DNA of 64,000 bases from Onchidella celtica. Lineage: Eukaryota > Mollusca > Gastropoda > Systellommatophora > Onchidiidae. The stretch lies in the NCBI GenBank assembly GCA_963931925.1, contig OZ007570.1, positions 64,349,370 to 64,413,369 of the forward strand. The letters are read 5' to 3'. Within the stretch, counting starts at the first letter, position 1. Every line of letters begins with the position of its first letter. Positions 9,210 to 56,900 of this stretch are shown here, piece after piece. A program made the position numbers and the translations under genes. Under the pieces are notes generated by a model. The model ran no database searches. It was not told the origin of the DNA and saw only the letters and a list, made by a program, of their open reading frames with translations.

Positions 9210-10199
9210 CTTCAAGCTGCTTTGGCAGAGATAGAAGATATGGTGTTGGACATGGGAGGACTTCAGCTCACACATTATGGCCTTCCTCACCATGAAAGAG
9301 ATGCTGTGCAGAGAGCTGGAGCGGACTACAGGCGGGAAATGACATATGACATCGGGAAGGAGAAGGAAGTCTCTGCGAGAAATATCCAGTTACTTAATAC
9401 AGAGCAACGTATTGTCCATGATGAGTTTGTTACAGCTGCACTTAATTCTGAGAAAGGGTACATATCCATTGTGCAAGGAACCAGACAGCATATCTCTGAA
9501 TTCATTTGGAACCACAGTATTAACTACAAATGACCTAATTACTTCTATCCAGATTTTTTGCAGAACCATACTAGCTCATCATGGCTGGCAGAACGGGCCA
9601 TATTGGCACCACTAAATGACACTGTACCCACCATCAATGCCAGACTTACTCAAATGATGCCTGGGCTGTGCAAAGTTTACACCTCCTTTGATAGCACTGT
9701 TACGGAAGAGGAGGCAGTGCATTATCCCACAGAGTTTCTTAATTCAGTAGAGGTCGCTGGGCTTCCGTCTCACAAACTTACCATTAAAGTTGGGATGCCA
9801 GTTATGATTATGCGGTCTCTCAACCCACCACGTCTAATGAATGGCACAAGGTGCACTGTCTGCAAATCTACCCCCAATGCTTTAATAGTGCAGATATCAT
9901 CAGGACCGTATAAGGGGGAAACACATGCCATTCCACGGATAATTTTGCAGCCTTCTGACAGTGCATTGCCCTTCACTTTTCAACGGCGTCAATTTCCCGT
10001 TTAGCCATGTTTTGCCATAACTATAAACAAGGCTCAGGGCCAGACTTTAAAAACCATGGGCTTGGATTTAACATCTCCAGTATTCACACATGGAATGCTA
10101 TATGTGGCACTGTCCAGGACAGGAACAAATAAATCTGTCTTTGTGTTGGCTGCGGAATATCAGACTCGCAACGTCGTCTATCCAGAAGTTCTACAGTGA
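9210..10199 (+). pseudogene. Helitron Rep/helicase remnant (Pif1-like helicase, internally deleted)
   Basis: Pieces of the C-terminal Pif1-like helicase of a rolling-circle Helitron. From 9210 the frame reads LQAALAEIEDMVLDMGG, then LNTEQRIVHDEFV, typical of the block just before Walker A. The sequence then jumps, without GxGKT or Walker B, to the GTTVLTTNDLITS block near 9510. A frameshift near 9548 leads to PDFLQNHTSSSWLAERAILAP and the later block with KVGMPVMIMRSLNPP. A TAG stop (10002-10004) breaks the frame before the last motif, which continues as ITINKAQGQTL and YVALSRT to the natural stop at 10197-10199. The deletion, frameshift and stop make it non-functional. The Rep domain is not present in the window. 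Confidence 0.85.
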
Positions 10200-12063: not shown

Positions 12064-12307
12064 AGCGCTTTTCCAAAACTGGGTAAGTCACATTTTGCAT
12101 GAGTTATGGCCCCTTTCAGATAGTCATTCAAATTTAGTGTAAGACGCGGTGTAAGTGTTCAATTAACACTTGCTATGTCCCGTCCTTATCTTTGGATAGT
12201 TTTAACAGTTTTAAGTTTTAATTGACTTTAACTGAGTTTTGAATGACTATCTGAAAGGAGCCGTAACTCATTCAAAATTTGACTTACCCAGTTCTGGCAA
12301 AAACGCT
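12064..12307. mobile_element. Foldback/MITE-like element with ~70-bp inverted arms
   Basis: The left arm (12064-12132) and right arm (12238-12307) are inverted repeats at roughly 80% or more identity, sharing AACTGGGTAAGTCA, ATGAGTTA and CCTTTCAGATAGTCATTCAAA. The loop is about 105 bp. Weaker similarity continues outward with gaps for another ~50 bp on each side (around 12010 and 12350, containing A-ATCTTT-TG). There is no coding sequence and no proven target duplication. Its left border nearly abuts the THAP-containing element. Confidence 0.65.
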
Positions 12308-18436: not shown

Positions 18437-19673
18437 TAATAATAATAATAATAATATATACATTTATATAGCGCCAGGACTAAAACATTAAAAGCTCTAG
18501 GCGCTGTACACAGTAAAAAATCATAAAAGCACATTCAAATAAACTTACACACACACAGACAAACTAGTTTTATACATCCATAGCAAGCTATAAAATTCAG
18601 TTTTTAAAAAGAAATGTTTTTAACCTGTTTTTAAATATGTTTAGAGAGGCAGAATTTCGAACCTCTTGTGGTAAAGAATTCCACACACAGGGACCAAAAC
18701 AACTAAAAGCTCCATCTCCATAATTTGATGTTTTACACCTGGGAACAACCAGTTTGTTTTCTGTAGTAGATCTTAAAAATCTATCAGACTCATGTTTTTT
18801 CAAAAGTTCCGAAAGATAGGAGGGAGCTGAACCTTCAAGACATTTGTAAACCAAAACTGCAGCTTTAAATTTTATTCTGTTTTCAACAGTAAGCCAGTGA
18901 AGTTGGTCAATAAGGCTTGAGGCAGATTCTCTTTTTGATTTTCTAAAAATCAGTCTAGCTGCATTATTCTGAATTATCTGAAGGCGTTTTATTTTGTTGC
19001 TCGGAATTCCAAAGAGCAGAGAGTTACAATAATCAAGCTTTGAAAACATAAGTGAAGTGATAAGTATTCGAGTTGCCTCTTGGGATATGAATGGACGAAT
19101 AGAGCTGATGTTTTTTAATTGAAACATTAATGATCGACATAATGAACTTATTTGATTTTCCATGCTGAGATCTGATTCTAAAATTGTGCCTAAGTTTTTA
19201 ACTTTATTCACGTTTGCTACAGTGCTTTCACCAATATTTAATTTTACATTTTTAATTGCAGTAATTTGTCTTTTCTTTCCAATAATCATAACTTCTGTTT
19301 TGTCTTCATTTAGCTTTAGTTTGTTTTGGTTCATCCATTCTTTTGTGTCCATAATACACTTTTCACTATCTTTTATAACATTGTCAACATGACCTAAAGT
19401 CGTACCAGGGTGATATAGTTGGACATCATCAGCATACTGATGGTAATAAAGACCATGATCTTTAAAAATATTAGACAGGGGCCCAATGTACATAATAAAG
19501 AGAGTGGGACCTAAAACTGAGCCTTGTGGAACACCATATGGCAGTATGTATTCTTTTGATTTTATGTTATCTGTTACAACAATTTGTTTTCGGTCACATA
19601 GATAGGACCTGAACCATTTCAGAGCTATACCAGAGATCCCATAGGTTGCTTCTAATCTGCAAAGATTAAACAC
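18437..19673 (-). pseudogene. 5'-truncated L2/CR1-type LINE: C-terminal reverse transcriptase and 3' UTR
   Basis: The coding part (18597-19673, 358 codons, open to its start) is the C-terminal two thirds of a non-LTR reverse transcriptase. Motif B is GVPQGSVLGP at residues 47-56 and the catalytic YADD box is at 80-83, inside GLYYHQYADDVQLYH, wording typical of the L2 clade. The thumb and C-terminal region runs to a natural stop. The sequence begins just after where motif A should lie, so motif A, the N-terminal fingers and the endonuclease are gone, the usual 5' truncation of target-primed reverse transcription. The ATG-less start is therefore a truncation edge, not a real start. The 3' UTR contains an AGCGCC-type hairpin and GGCGCTATATAAATG, and ends in an (ATT)n tail at 18436-18456. 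The clade call comes from motif wording plus the tail. Confidence 0.88.
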
Positions 19674-43914: not shown

Positions 43915-43922
43915 CTCCAGGC
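43915..43922. repeat. Left 8-bp target-site duplication of the palindromic insertion
   Basis: CTCCAGGC directly abuts the palindrome on its left and is repeated in the same orientation directly to its right. Confidence 0.6.
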
Positions 43923-43964
43923 CAAAGAGGGTTATAGTAACTATAGTTACTATAACCCTCTTTG
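43923..43964. mobile_element. 42-bp perfect palindrome flanked by an 8-bp direct repeat (candidate TIR-only DNA transposon relic)
   Basis: Bases 43923-43964 read identically on both strands: each 21-base arm starts CAAAGAGGGTTATAG and the two arms abut with no spacer. The eight bases CTCCAGGC occur immediately before (43915-43922) and immediately after (43965-43972). An 8-bp target duplication is the hallmark of hAT and P superfamily insertion. The target also agrees with the hAT preference nTCTAGAn at T2, C3, A5 and G6. I infer an insertion reduced to its two terminal repeats. It lies about 290 bp upstream of the piggyBac ORF but is probably unrelated to it. Confidence 0.6.
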
Positions 43965-43972
43965 CTCCAGGC
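43965..43972. repeat. Right 8-bp target-site duplication of the palindromic insertion
   Basis: Second copy of CTCCAGGC, starting at the base after the palindrome ends. Confidence 0.6.
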
Positions 43973-44252
43973 TTAGCTTCCTCGCGCATATGCTGCGCGC
44001 GGTCTAGATAACAATAGCACGTCATTGTTCATAATATCACCTCGCGCTGTCATTGAGCGACCCACTTTGCAAACGGTCGATACCCTGCGCGCTACTCTCA
44101 TGTGACTCATCGACCTACCTTTCACGCCACGGCGCGCAAAGCCCGAGTTTGCAAAGCATCGCACGGCTACACACCTTGTTACTTTATGTGTTCCTAGTCG
44201 TGTGACAACTACACTGCCGGTTAGCGCCATTTTAGATCTGTTTTAACTGAAA
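43970..44252 (+). promoter_or_regulatory. CpG-rich leader upstream of the piggyBac ORF
   Basis: This ~280-bp stretch is visibly richer in CpG and GCGC than its surroundings, with several GCGCGC-type clusters (around 43983-44000, 44041-44047, 44088-44093 and 44131-44137). TTTGCAAA-type octamers occur twice (near 44066 and 44150). It lies directly before the transposase start, so it may be its 5' leader or promoter. No TATA box or initiator stands out. The assignment is by position and base composition only. Confidence 0.35.
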
Positions 44253-46250
44253 TTGGGCGGATACTTTTGTGACCATCATTTCGTATATGTATTGTTACGA
44301 TACGTAATGGCGAAGCCCATGCAGCGAACATTTCCAGCGAGAGAAGTACAAGACGAAATATTTACACAAGGCTCTGATGATGAGGGCGATTTCGATAAGT
44401 CTCTTCAGGATTTTGAAGCCGATGATTGTAACAGTGATGAGGAGTTGTTTGAGGATGTGATAGACATCAAATGTGAAGCAGCAGAAAGTGAGTCAAATAC
44501 ATCGCCAACTCATTTCGGTGGTGATGATAGTGGCGAAGATCACGACAGTGATGAGGATGAGAAAGTGTTTGACAGTAAGGACTTTGGTCAAGCTAATGTC
44601 GGTGGTGCTGATGGTGATACTAATGTTGAAATGTACGATGCCGACACTGACATAGATGAGGAGCAACAAGGAGAACCAGGTGCTGAACACGATGATGCAG
44701 ATGAAACTGAGTGGGTGCGCAATACACACGATTTTCCTCACATCCCCAAGTTTACAGGGCGCCCTGGGTTAAAGGTTCAGCTCCCAGACGACCCCTCAGC
44801 ATTTGACATCTACAGGCTGATCATAACAGATGAGCTCATCGAAGAGTGGACAGTGGAGACAAATCGCTACGCTCGGGGGTTGTTAAATTCAAAGAAACAT
44901 GATACTTTGTCCAGGAGGAGTCGTTTCAGGACATGGAAGCCAGTTACACTGCAGGAAATGCGTGTCTTCCTTGCCATTTGCCTGCACATGGGATTGGTGA
45001 AGAAACCAACTCTCCAGGACTACTGGTCTCGCCATCCTGCCGTGCACTCTTCCTTCTGTCCCAAGGTGATGACACGGGAAAGATACTTGTCTATTCTTGC
45101 CTTCCTTCACATTTCTAACAATGAAACATTCATCCCCTTCGACCAACCTAATCACGACCCTATCCACAAAATCAGACCCTTTGTCACACATTTGAATGCA
45201 AAGTTCAAAGAGTTGTACCAACCTGAAAAAGACGTCTGCATCGATGAAGCAATGGTGCCATTCAAGGGTCGCTCACGGTTCAAGGTTTATATGAAAGATA
45301 AACCCAACAAGTGGGGTTTTAAACTGTACGAACTCTGTGAGAGCGAGTCTGGCTATGTCTGTTCTGTGGAAATGTACTGTGCAGATAAACGCATAAGCAA
45401 TAAACCTGTTGATGTGACCATGAGACTTATGGAACCACTGCTGAACAAGGGATACAGACTATACACTGATAAATATTACTGCTGTCCAGAATTATGGGAT
45501 CGGCTGAGACAGACGCAGACAATGATGTGCGGAACATGCAGGAAAAATCGTCCAGGGATGCCTAGGGATTTGTTTGAAGTCAGACATAAAGCTGGGGATT
45601 TGGACTACAGACGCAGAGGTCAGCTGATCGTGACGAGATGGACTGGCAAGCGAGAAGTTGTCACACTATCCACCTTTCACAAACCTGAACTGCAAAAGAC
45701 AGTAGGGCGGCATGAAGTCAAGGACAAACCATTGGCTGTCATCAGCTACATCAAGAAGTCTAGAACAGACCACTCGGATCAACTCACTTCTTTCTTTCCC
45801 ATGAGACGAAAGTCCCAGAAGTGGTGGAAGAAACCATTTTTCCACCTGCTAACTCTGGTCAGCATCCAGGCCAACATTCTCCTAAACAAGCACCGCAGGC
45901 ATCAGCGAAGAAAGAAAATGTCTCTGGCACAGGTCATAAAGGAACTCATTCTCAGCCTTGCAGAGAAACCTTTAGACTATGACGATGCTGCTGACAGTGT
46001 GAACTTGCCATCGGCCCGCCTACATGAGAGACACTTCCCACAGAAATGTCCCATAACCGCAACTACTGGACGGAAAGCCCGCAGAGTTTGCAAAGTCTGC
46101 GTGGATAAGGCAAAACAAGCTGGTGCGTCGGCAAAAGACATAAAAAACAAGAGAAAACAGACACCATTCTGGTGTCCCAGATGTAAAGTGGGCCTCTGTT
46201 TGGAATGTTTTGAGGTGTATCACACAAAGGTCGACTACACTGCGATGTGA
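44253..46250 (+). CDS. piggyBac-family transposase, intact 665-residue ORF
   Basis: Cut-and-paste DNA transposase of the piggyBac (DDE_Tnp_1_7) family, expected to act in the nucleus on TTAA-flanked ends. What is seen: residues 35-155 are strongly acidic and low complexity, as is usual for the N-terminus. The domain proper runs from about 180 to 545. The catalytic acidic residues fit D331 (in CIDEAMVPFKGR), D406 (in YTDKYYCC) and D509 (in DHSDQL), followed by the family's Lys/Trp-rich segment near 520-530. The C-terminus (599-657) is a cysteine-rich zinc-binding domain with C599, C613/C616, C641/C644, C649/C652 and H657. The length is normal for the family. M19 (44307) is a second plausible start, because residues 1-18 precede the acidic region and look unconserved. 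There is no stop or frameshift, unlike every other transposon protein here. A domesticated piggyBac-derived gene is an alternative to an active element. The family call is firm; activity is unknown. Confidence 0.95.
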   Translation: MGGYFCDHHFVYVLLRYVMAKPMQRTFPAREVQDEIFTQGSDDEGDFDKSLQDFEADDCNSDEELFEDVIDIKCEAAESESNTSPTHFGGDDSGEDHDSDEDEKVFDSKDFGQANVGGADGDTNVEMYDADTDIDEEQQGEPGAEHDDADETEWVRNTHDFPHIPKFTGRPGLKVQLPDDPSAFDIYRLIITDELIEEWTVETNRYARGLLNSKKHDTLSRRSRFRTWKPVTLQEMRVFLAICLHMGLVKKPTLQDYWSRHPAVHSSFCPKVMTRERYLSILAFLHISNNETFIPFDQPNHDPIHKIRPFVTHLNAKFKELYQPEKDVCIDEAMVPFKGRSRFKVYMKDKPNKWGFKLYELCESESGYVCSVEMYCADKRISNKPVDVTMRLMEPLLNKGYRLYTDKYYCCPELWDRLRQTQTMMCGTCRKNRPGMPRDLFEVRHKAGDLDYRRRGQLIVTRWTGKREVVTLSTFHKPELQKTVGRHEVKDKPLAVISYIKKSRTDHSDQLTSFFPMRRKSQKWWKKPFFHLLTLVSIQANILLNKHRRHQRRKKMSLAQVIKELILSLAEKPLDYDDAADSVNLPSARLHERHFPQKCPITATTGRKARRVCKVCVDKAKQAGASAKDIKNKRKQTPFWCPRCKVGLCLECFEVYHTKVDYTAM

Positions 46251-52829: not shown

Positions 52830-53722
52830 GACGCTTTTTCAAATCACGCAAAGCGCAACTTTCAATCCAGAAAAAAGACACGTATGTATGTCTCAGGCAC
52901 AAAATTGCGACTAAAAACGTATGCGTCATGACCTAGTCTGGAACGATCCCACCAACAGTGAGTTAGTGAGCTCAAGTGCAGAACTCCGACCTAGCACACA
53001 TCTACTTCTAAAATCACAATTTACAGACGGCATGTTCTAGCAACAAATTTTTCCCACTTTATGTCCAGCCATGCTCAAGAGACATCACTGAGGCTTAATA
53101 ATTCAAGGCATCTTAATGTCATCCTCTCAGTTTCACGGCCTAAGAGAGTCTTAGCTATAAATAATGCTGACATAAGCTTTGTTAAAGAGAGAAATAATGT
53201 CAGCAGAATGACCACAACCCATTAGGATCAGCACCTCGTTTTGTCGGCTACTGACACTAGTCATTTTGTAGTACATCTCTCTTTGAGAGCTCAGTCGCCC
53301 TGGAGGATACGGTCTACCCTACCAATATTGGACAGCTAAAAGAAGCTTACCAGTTCGCAATGTTCAGTAACTCTGTATTCATAAGCTGTCCTTGACTAAC
53401 GATATAGTTAAGATATTATTTATATTGATCACACAAATCCATAAGACTCAGCCTCAGTATCTCTGGCATTCTCGGCAAATCTAGGACAGTCAGGCCACAT
53501 ACAAATTACTTAGCATTACATTATGAATAATCTTAATTATCCCTGGGGTTTGTCTCGTCGCCCATCTCACGTACTGGCTTATCACAGACTTACTCATTCC
53601 ATGATCTATAGGAGAGCATTTCAAAGTTTTGGCCACTTTTGGAATTCCTGCATGTGGCAAGAAGGTTTGTTCTTACACCTTCAAAACGTTTCATGACATC
53701 GGTATGTCACTTTGTGAGAATG

Positions 53723-53958
53723 TACTGGGTGATTCAAAAAGAATGTACCGATTTTATGACGCTTTGCTGGAATGAATTCTCTTATCGCATTGATGTTGCC
53801 CGTGCTGCTGGTGGTGGCCACATTCAACACTTGTAAGACAGGAAATAAAAAGTTGATTGTGAGTACAATACTTGCGACTTAGCTTGAGTTTTCGATTGCT
53901 TTTCCTTTTTAAAATATTCCGTCATAAAATCGGTTCCTTCTTTTTGAATCACCCTGTA
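53723..53958 (+). mobile_element. Tc1/mariner-type internally deleted element with 38-bp TIRs
   Basis: Terminal inverted repeats at 53723-53760 and 53921-53958 match at 35 of 38 positions. They begin TAC(T/A)GGGTGATTCAAAAAGAA, and each end coincides with TA, consistent with a TA target duplication. Between them, right after the left repeat, lie the last codons of a transposase (53762-53836, ending in a stop). About 85 bp of AT-rich 3' leader follow. I infer a deletion derivative that cannot make a transposase but could be moved in trans by a full-length relative. Confidence 0.82.
53762..53836 (+). pseudogene. C-terminal stub of a Tc1/mariner-superfamily transposase
   Basis: In frame: LCWNEFSYRIDVARAAGGGH then IQHL and a stop. 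The pattern W.EF.YR.DV.R...G.HI.HL is the usual ending of Tc1/mariner-related transposases that carry a DUF4817-type N-terminal helix-turn-helix domain. All of the catalytic DDE domain is missing. Family assignment from about 24 residues is provisional, but the enclosing TIRs support it. Confidence 0.6.
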
Positions 53959-53959
53959 T

Positions 53960-56900
53960 ATCTCACCATGGGCGATGATAAAGTATTTAAAGTCATAACT
54001 CAAAACCACCAAAATCATAGAAATGCCATGCCATAAATGAGATGGGCGACGTGTTTGTTTGTTTTTTCTTTCCCTCCAGATTCTCGAAATGAAATCCCTC
54101 ACCATGTACACTCCTTCACTTTTCAATGAAACTCATTCATGTGATTACATGAGTCATGTGATTACATGAATGTATATATATTTTTTTTAATGATTATGCT
54201 ACATTTTTCTGTGGATTAGATAATTCTTTTTGAATTTTCGTATTAAGAAGTACCGGTACTCAGAAATTCGATTCCAAATGTACCTTTTCCTCTTGTGTCC
54301 GCCCAGTGCTGTTTACACAGACGAAAACAAAGCCGCCAATAACGACCGTTTAATGGCTACTGCCTTTCATCTTTTCTGATCTTTGTCTCCGCCAGATGGA
54401 AAACTGGTGACGTCAGCGTCTGAGCTTTTGTTTAGATCTTTAACTAGGGCACCAGCGGGACCTTCTACACCCAGAACCTTTCCTTTCTTTAGTCTGGTCC
54501 TCGACATGGCCAAAGGCAACCAAGAAATAGTAAGAAAATTTCAAAATTCTGTTAAAATTTTAACGTCTGAACAGCACATGGTTGGATATGTATCTATTGA
54601 CAATCAATGTCGTCATCTCCACATAAATTCTCCACATAGTTCCATCATTCAACTACCACTCAGCAAATGTTCCCATGCGATATTAGAGCATACTCAGGCG
54701 TGTTATGACATACATGTGGGACCATAGTAACTGGATACAAAATGAGCAGGATCACCGATCTGTAAGTGGGTCGGCTGCAAGCCGGGGAAATTTAGCCAAT
54801 GGAATAACAAATTTCACTGGATACAGCAATGTCATCCCACATATTATCGGCTTTATCTCTGCCGTAAAAAGAAAAAAAAAACCTGAGGCCTTGCATGTCG
54901 CCAGCTGACATTTGTGAGTACGAGCATAAGTGTGTTTATTCCTCCGCTGGAGTGGGGGGGACAAAAAGAGCACATGAGAACATGCAGATTACCTTCCTTT
55001 ACAATGCTTCCAAGTAACACTTCAGAGTACATGCTCAAAACCCCACAGCATACAAGAAGAGATACAGGAATATGAAGACGTGGTTGAAACTCACACTTAA
55101 AGGCACATTTTTATATATTTATTTATTTTTACAATCAGGGAACGTAGCGGGCCTCAGGAACTTCGTAGCCTCTGGATGATGAACTTCGTTAACACAGCTG
55201 AGATGCCTTTTCCATATCCCACTTCATGTTCTGCTCGCTCAACGCATATATATATTTATGACAGGTCTTCTGGTTACCCGAGCCCACCAGGCTGCCGCTT
55301 TGGCTACATCCATTTCGATTTCATACTGCGCAGAAACACGTCCTATGTCAAAGACAAGCGACAAGAGAAATACAATGTAACATTGTATCCTCCTCCCTGA
55401 TTTGTTTTAAAAGACTCAAATCCTTTACAAATAAGTCTTGTCAATTTAACCCTTTTATCGTTTCAAGCTTGAAGCCGGCAGAAACTGTGATTTTTTAAAT
55501 TTAAGGGGAGGAATGGAGAAAGAGGACCGATTTTCTAAACATGCATGGGCACACCTTATTTTCTGGTTATCCTAATGCATTGATTCTCATTAAACTGACA
55601 TGATCCAATATATATAGTCTGGACTAATCATTTGGAAGACACAGATAGCTTCTTCTCCTGTAAAAATACGTTAACATGTAAGAACGTCCGAGAAAGTTCT
55701 ACAAATGCGCAGTTCAATCGCCAGTCATATGGTGCTAGAGACAGAAAAATGAACTGAGCCGAGATAGCCCTTGCTCGCTTCCCCTAGATGCCTTGTTTGT
55801 TTGCCATACTTGTAATTAGCGGACAAGAAAGGGGAAGGGCTTGTCTCAATTAGCCAGAGGTCCCAATTTCTGGAGTGCACACGGTCTGGCCGAAGGAAGG
55901 TTTTGTGCTCCCGTATCGCCAGTCGCACATCTCGGTAATTGGCAAAGATTGATAAAGTCCTCGCTAGCCTGGACTTTCTCGTTCATTCACTGGAATCAGT
56001 GGCGAAACCAGGGAGGCTCGGAAGCTACCCCGGCGCTAATCTCCTTTGATCTCTGGTATGGTAACCGCTGGCAATTAGGGGCACGCTGCCAGGAGGGGAC
56101 AGCTGCAGTTTTAAGGTGGGATGTTGTAGGATACGACTGTGGTTATGAAACCAACATTTCGCCATAAAGTTTACAAAGCTGAACACACCAATACCCGAAC
56201 AATGCTGTATAATAGTACTAATAGTATTTACTTAGATCTATATGGACCTTTCGTATTCAGCAGTTCAAAAAGCCGGAGCATGGCACAGCCAGGATTAATT
56301 TTGGTCCTCAAATACCAAAAATGAATCGACCGAAATATGCACTGACTCCAACTCGGCAGGTGGTGCCACGTTAAGGCGTAAAACCAAGATAGAAGCAAAG
56401 AAAAACAAATCTCAGAAATGGTTATTAATGACTTATCTACCGTTGTTTCTACATTTCTCACGTTCTGAAGTTTGCGTCAAGGATTGCAACCCAGTGTCTG
56501 GTCCTATCTTAAACATGTCTATCAGCTCGACGGGCGGGAGTTCGGCACTCCAGTTCATCCTTGATCATCTGAGAACACAGTCCAGTTAGATGAGCTCTCC
56601 TGTCTGACAAGAGACCCCGTGTCTGGTGATATCACCAGAGAGAACGAATTGGTTGACATTTATATCATGACATCTCATTACATCCATGTGAGATTCTGTT
56701 ACTTGCAGATGATATGTCCTGATAAAATAAAGACAGCTGAAGAACCAAAGAACACAATGTGATAAACTGGAAAGGGTTCTTAACAGCTGGAGAATTTTAT
56801 CATAGAGAAAAAGTTTTCTTCTCTCGCCGGCTCTCAAATTCCTGCCACACAGTAACCTTACAAATGACAGTTTCATAGGCTGGCGTCTATCCACGCAACT

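Follow-up and report, generated by a model that had tools for sequence, protein, structure and literature searches.

The window analyzed here, a 64,000-nucleotide stretch of the Onchidella celtica genome, contains at positions 43915–43972 a perfect 42-bp palindrome between two exact copies of the 8-bp sequence CTCCAGGC, as the first-pass annotation had described. Direct checking of the sequence showed that the palindrome (43923–43964) consists of two 21-bp arms with zero spacer. The flanking copies occupy 43915–43922 and 43965–43972, and the repeat is exactly 8 bp long, the adjoining bases differing on both sides. Comparison with the ends of the long transposon copies described below divides the palindrome into 19 nt, TATA and 19 nt. 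The first part (43923–43941, + strand) is identical to the outer 19 nt at both ends of four of these copies (L011–L014) and would be a TIR remnant of a departed element; the last part (43946–43964, − strand) would be the corresponding remnant from the opposite end. The TATA between them (43942–43945) departs from the element sequence, where AAGA follows, and is treated as junction filler. As a single strand, the palindrome folds much better than shuffled sequences (z = −6.2), which is true of any palindrome.

Several other features lie in the window. An intact frame of 647 aa at 44307–46250 (+), ∼335 bp after the palindrome, encodes a piggyBac-type transposase (DDE_Tnp_1_7, E = 4.8e-80), with piggyBat as its best solved-structure match, and is perhaps a domesticated gene. 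This frame was considered as the source of the palindrome and rejected: no convincing TTAA-bounded inverted ends were found among 572 pairs, and piggyBac elements would not be expected to make an 8-bp duplication. Upstream of the frame, a stretch of ∼100 bp within 44036–44163 is 72%–78% identical to five other places in the genome (on C3, C15, C16, C6, and C14). Further away, frames match the Pif1 helicase domain (9558–10004, +) and reverse transcriptase (RVT_1; 18597–19673, −), and two MITE-like inverted repeats are present at 12069–12301 (64-bp arms, 91%) and 53720–53961 (42-bp arms, 90%).

The palindrome is the sole perfect one in the 64-kb window with arms of at least 12 bp and a spacer of 0–8, and, for elements of up to 3 kb, no other site in the window has inverted ends of at least 12 bp flanked by an exact 8-bp repeat. 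In three simulations with a first-order Markov model of the window, this combination of inverted ends and 8-bp repeat never occurred. With an independent-base model, ∼3e-8 zero-spacer palindromes of this size are expected per 64 kb, and the chance of an 8-bp flank match is ∼2e-5. Outside the genome, viral contigs gave no match to the exact arm or the palindrome core; prokaryote genome contigs gave two matches to a single arm and none to the palindrome, where about two were estimated by chance from the size of the collection. Rfam returned no match above its cut-offs, a tRNA scan found none, and 18 letters of the arm had no match in the full text of open-access papers.

The window's own assembly (1.14 Gb, 43 contigs) was then the genome searched. 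The 19-bp arm has 28 exact copies, as against none for the reversed control. Half of these (14) are the ends of ten copies or fragments of one element of ∼2.2–2.25 kb, in which the arm continues into AAGAG; 13 sit in 12 short units of 25–52 bp, the window unit included; and one (L026) fits neither class. All 12 short units have 8-bp duplications of their own, the two copies being identical in five units and differing at one position in seven. Copies with different flanks, which the first-pass annotation had anticipated, are therefore present, and its view of the 8-bp repeat as a target-site duplication is borne out by these sister units. Four more units (24, 31, 32, and 73 bp) came from two additional searches that used shorter ends, and among the resulting 16 the duplications are exact in eight and differ by one mismatch in eight. 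Identical junctions recur, a 33-bp form three times and a 27-bp form twice; the full 42-bp sequence has a single occurrence in the genome, all 12 places being listed. When 631 bases around the window unit were used as the genome query, the palindrome alone was matched in two sister units, together with a weak downstream match of ∼100 bases (72%–78%), and no second copy of the flanks was found in the genome. The window unit thus does not lie within a larger repeat, a possibility that had been raised at the outset.

The duplications follow a common rule, NNC..GNN. At 20 sites (the 16 short units and four full elements), the third base is C and the sixth is G in all 40 flanks. The 8-bp consensus is itself palindromic, near GCCTAGGC, and both copies of CTCCAGGC in the window conform to it. 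These observations bear on the idea that the palindrome is an assembly artefact or a chance occurrence. Palindromes can be mis-assembled, and the unit is read here from the assembled sequence, but twelve short units with this arm, differing duplications, and a common target rule argue against an artefact; the chance expectation is negligible, and the probability of this explanation is regarded as vanishingly small.

A looser TIR pattern extended the set, matching 57 places in the genome compared with nine in the control. Among the 50 places listed, the 8-bp flanks match exactly in 21, with one mismatch in seven, two in three, three in two, and five or more in 17. When flanks were paired across loci as a control, exact matches made up 0% and one-mismatch matches 0.9%. 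Nine of the 17 failures, counted as such within the 50, belong to a palindromic subtype, CAAAGAGGA(G/A)TA (L053, L060, L064, L066–L068, L081, L086, and L087). The flanks of these units resemble one another (CGGTGTGCC; on one side only in L068), which indicates that the subtype is embedded in a larger repeat. Among the remaining eight failures there may be chance matches or old units.

The element whose ends match the arms is present in long copies that are 87%–97% identical to one another over their shared parts. Four of them, L011–L014, have both ends exact, with TIRs identical over 24–25 bp and 8-bp duplications that are exact in three and have a mismatch in one; L015 likewise repeats its 8 bp. 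L014 extends to 5.5 kb owing to an insertion, the frames of which look LINE-like by eye. In L012, ∼440 bp (∼1995–2436, corresponding to ∼1495–1936 of the element) also stand alone at no fewer than 16 places with 91%–93% identity, and this stretch probably represents another repeat, of higher copy number, that lies within the P-type element. The correspondence between the arms and the outer 19 nt of the L011–L014 TIRs confirms the earlier proposal that the palindrome consists of two abutting transposon ends.

The first-pass annotation had offered hAT or P as the source of an 8-bp duplication and had looked to longer elements with the same ends for the transposase. Such elements exist at ∼2.2 kb, but P domains were above cut-offs only in a diverged relative. 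In the 2.2-kb element itself, pieces match THAP (E = 7.5e-4; L011 and L014) and THAP9_C (E = 0.007; L011, L014, and L032), both below the Pfam cut-offs. The relative, L047, is 81%–86% identical, and its open frames match above the cut-offs the P transposase HTH (1e-5), the RNase H N-terminal part (1e-15), and the GTP-binding domain (1.7e-18), the Pfam families being PF12017, PF21787, and PF21788. The best structure match of its GTP-binding piece is the Drosophila P transposase 6p5a (2.3e-7). Since this relative encodes P-transposase domains, the window family is assigned to P rather than hAT, and the first of the two original suggestions, hAT, is not supported. A hAT MITE or hAT footprint would agree with the 8-bp duplication, and CAAAG fits a loose hAT end motif. 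In hAT excision, however, the cuts fall near the element ends, and 19 nt of TIR would not be expected to remain at each side; no hAT domain was found in 16 scanned open pieces of L011, L014, L025, L032, and L047, and those pieces with matches gave P-type domains. Together with the P-type coding of L047, this makes a hAT origin exceedingly improbable. The left end of L047 resembles a diverged form of the same TIR, and a LINE-like frame follows its right part. It is therefore a relative and not the working parent, and the fact that the sole transposase-bearing copy examined is diverged, with a diverged left TIR and an interrupted right part, counts against the footprint reading proposed below.

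The retention of TIR sequence in the 16 short units has a sharp limit. The longest retained side measures 19 nt in ten units, 20 in two, 17 in one, 16 in two, and 14 in one, and in all 32 ends the match to the TIR stops at or before 20 nt, although intact TIRs extend to at least 24. This cut-off at 19(–20) nt compares with a stagger of 17 nt in Drosophila. The exact 19-mer search supplied 12 of the 16 units, and selection by TIR matches favors ends of at least 19, so shorter retention is under-counted in these figures while the upper limit is unaffected; loose-pattern units with shorter or variant TIRs stand outside the count. Most sites of the window's family differ in their junctions, which fall into microhomology and filler classes: overlaps of 1–4 nt in nine of the 16 units, gaps of 2–23 nt in six, and one nested case (L046). 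Individual forms correspond to the products expected from simple pairings. Pairing of TATA with TATA would give the 24-bp form, pairing of a 3′ TAAC with GTTA in the opposite tail the 27-bp form, microhomology through TA the 32-bp form, and pairing of AC with GT the 33-bp form.

Taken with the P-type assignment, these features make it most likely that the window unit is the footprint of a P-superfamily DNA transposon, left when the element was excised and the donor ends were joined, a reading to which a probability of about 0.92 is assigned. Its anatomy and the sister copies support a first step in which insertion of a P-like element at CTCCAGGC would have produced the 8-bp duplication. A transposase acting in cis or in trans would then have cut the 3′ strand at the element ends but the second strand ∼19 nt further in, within each TIR, a position suggested by the retention cut-off in the 16 units and by the 17-nt stagger known for Drosophila P. 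Each donor end would retain the duplication and a 3′ tail, CAAAGAGGGTTATAGTAAC, and the element would depart. In the last step, the cell would join the two identical inverted tails, probably through polymerase-theta-type joining, with 4 bp of TATA between them as filler. The filler is likely to be templated: the 3′ AC of one tail may pair with GT of the other, TATA be copied, and both TATA ends anneal. Because one TIR sequence supplies both arms, a symmetric join of this kind gives a perfect palindrome. Recent formation is plausible from the perfection of the arms and the duplication. No function is proposed for the palindrome, which is regarded as a scar. The first-pass annotation had also entertained loss of the interior after insertion; this comes close, the mechanism now proposed being excision and end joining.

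Alternatively, a resident element may have been internally deleted by incomplete gap repair, in which synthesis-dependent repair is followed by end joining. In wild-type flies, most recovered P excision products are described as showing partial repair synthesis and then end joining (PMC2895639), and the 2.2-kb copies here themselves look internally deleted. Synthesis would, however, usually keep element sequence past the tails, and such sequence is absent from all 32 ends. In a systematic length search, the range of which left out 47–48 bp and deletion derivatives of 79 bp to ∼1 kb, only two units were found between 49 and 78 bp, one of them a nested insertion. Gap repair is accordingly considered highly improbable.

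The nested case led to a second set of units. At L046 (1501–1573; G000:C14:7744500–7744572), a 73-bp stretch holds a scar of the window's family into which a different short palindromic unit has inserted, with 7 bp duplicated. The ends of the inserted unit, CAGAGACCTTA, occur at 36 places in the genome and at none in the control, in units of 22–34 bp (e.g., L048–L052). Among the 25 checked of the other 35, the 7-bp duplications are exact in 22, with one mismatch in one, two in one, and four in one; flanks paired across loci match exactly over 7 bp in 1.5%. The duplications tend to GTnnnAC. Galileo, of the P superfamily, is reported to make 7-bp duplications with the consensus GTAGTAC (PMC2775673), close to this pattern, and the resemblance suggests that a second P-type family has probably also left scars. 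The likeness concerns the duplications; no transposase of this set was seen. A single 33-bp form, CAGAGACC, accounts for 21 of the 36 units, 14 of them identical and seven sharing the same single-base change. Repeated joining through microhomology at AGCT would account for this repetition, and a scar origin of the CAGAGACC set predicts parent ends beginning CAGAGACCTTATATAGCT and CAGAGACCTTACAATAGCT that diverge past TAGCT. It is very unlikely that some scars of 22–33 bp, above all this 33-bp form, were re-mobilised as such by a P-type transposase; if true, they would be among the smallest mobile DNAs known.

The same recurrence bears on the original suggestion that the window palindrome is a minimal mobile unit, an ultra-short MITE that a P transposase would mobilise as it stands. 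Short units with matching target duplications are found at many sites, the 33-bp and 27-bp forms recur in the window's family, and the second set is dominated by one sequence. Exact recurrence could indeed come from amplification of a mobile unit and counts to that extent against the footprint reading. Yet the 42-bp sequence itself has not been amplified at several sites, and the junctions vary among most sites of the family. Flies also yield identical junctions independently, one class in Table 1 of the excision study having been isolated 14 times (PMC2895639), and the short units are without the internal transposase binding sites that Drosophila P ends are reported to have beyond the TIR (PMC7776569). 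A unit mobile in this form is thus judged very unlikely, and the palindrome is better explained as the excision remnant of a full-length P-type element, with tails of up to ∼19 nt joined end to end. Nothing relevant on palindromic or smallest MITEs was found in the open-access literature searched.

As excision footprints, such units record both the former place of a transposon and the cutting mode of its enzyme. In a genome with many of them, the apparent stagger, the target rule, and the end-joining habits of the host become readable from sequence alone. They also call for caution in annotation, since very short "palindromic MITEs" may, despite their perfect duplications, be scars rather than mobile units.

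Excision scars of what appears to be this kind are known from Drosophila. P transposase, which makes an 8-bp duplication (PMC7776569), is described as cutting the 3′ strand at the element end but the opposite strand 17 nt into the TIR, which produces long single-stranded tails (PMC7776569; PMC2895639). Because of this stagger, the donor breaks keep the duplication and a TIR tail on both sides. The fly junctions in Tables 1–3 of the excision study accordingly have a copy of the 8-bp duplication on each outer side, then at most 17 nt of TIR from either end, and microhomology or filler in the middle (PMC2895639). By our own reading of that paper, the class isolated 14 times is a perfect 30-bp palindrome. 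The D. melanogaster junctions thus resemble the present units in the duplication, the capped TIR on both sides, the joining by microhomology, blunt ends, or filler, and the occurrence of palindromic and recurrent junctions. They differ in that they are laboratory events in Rad51-deficient flies with 17-nt tails, whereas the scars here are natural and the limit is 19(–20) nt (PMC2895639). The apparent stagger of ∼19 nt for the transposase of the window's family, deduced from sequence, departs from the known 17 nt and weighs against the footprint reading, as do 20 other Table 1 isolates in which all or nearly all of the TIR was lost (PMC2895639). Zebrafish Pdre2/THAP9 is similar in its 8-bp duplications, its THAP/P-type transposase, and its internally deleted copies but is reported to have a 13-bp TIR, CATACCTGTCAAC, in contrast to a TIR of at least 24 bp, CAAAGAGGGTTATAGTAACAAGAG, in the present element (PMC10983969). 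Neither a natural genome-wide set of scars nor a stagger of ∼19 nt was met in the open-access literature searched. New here are the natural scar set, the apparent ∼19-nt stagger, and a second set, which has 7-bp duplications and is Galileo-like.
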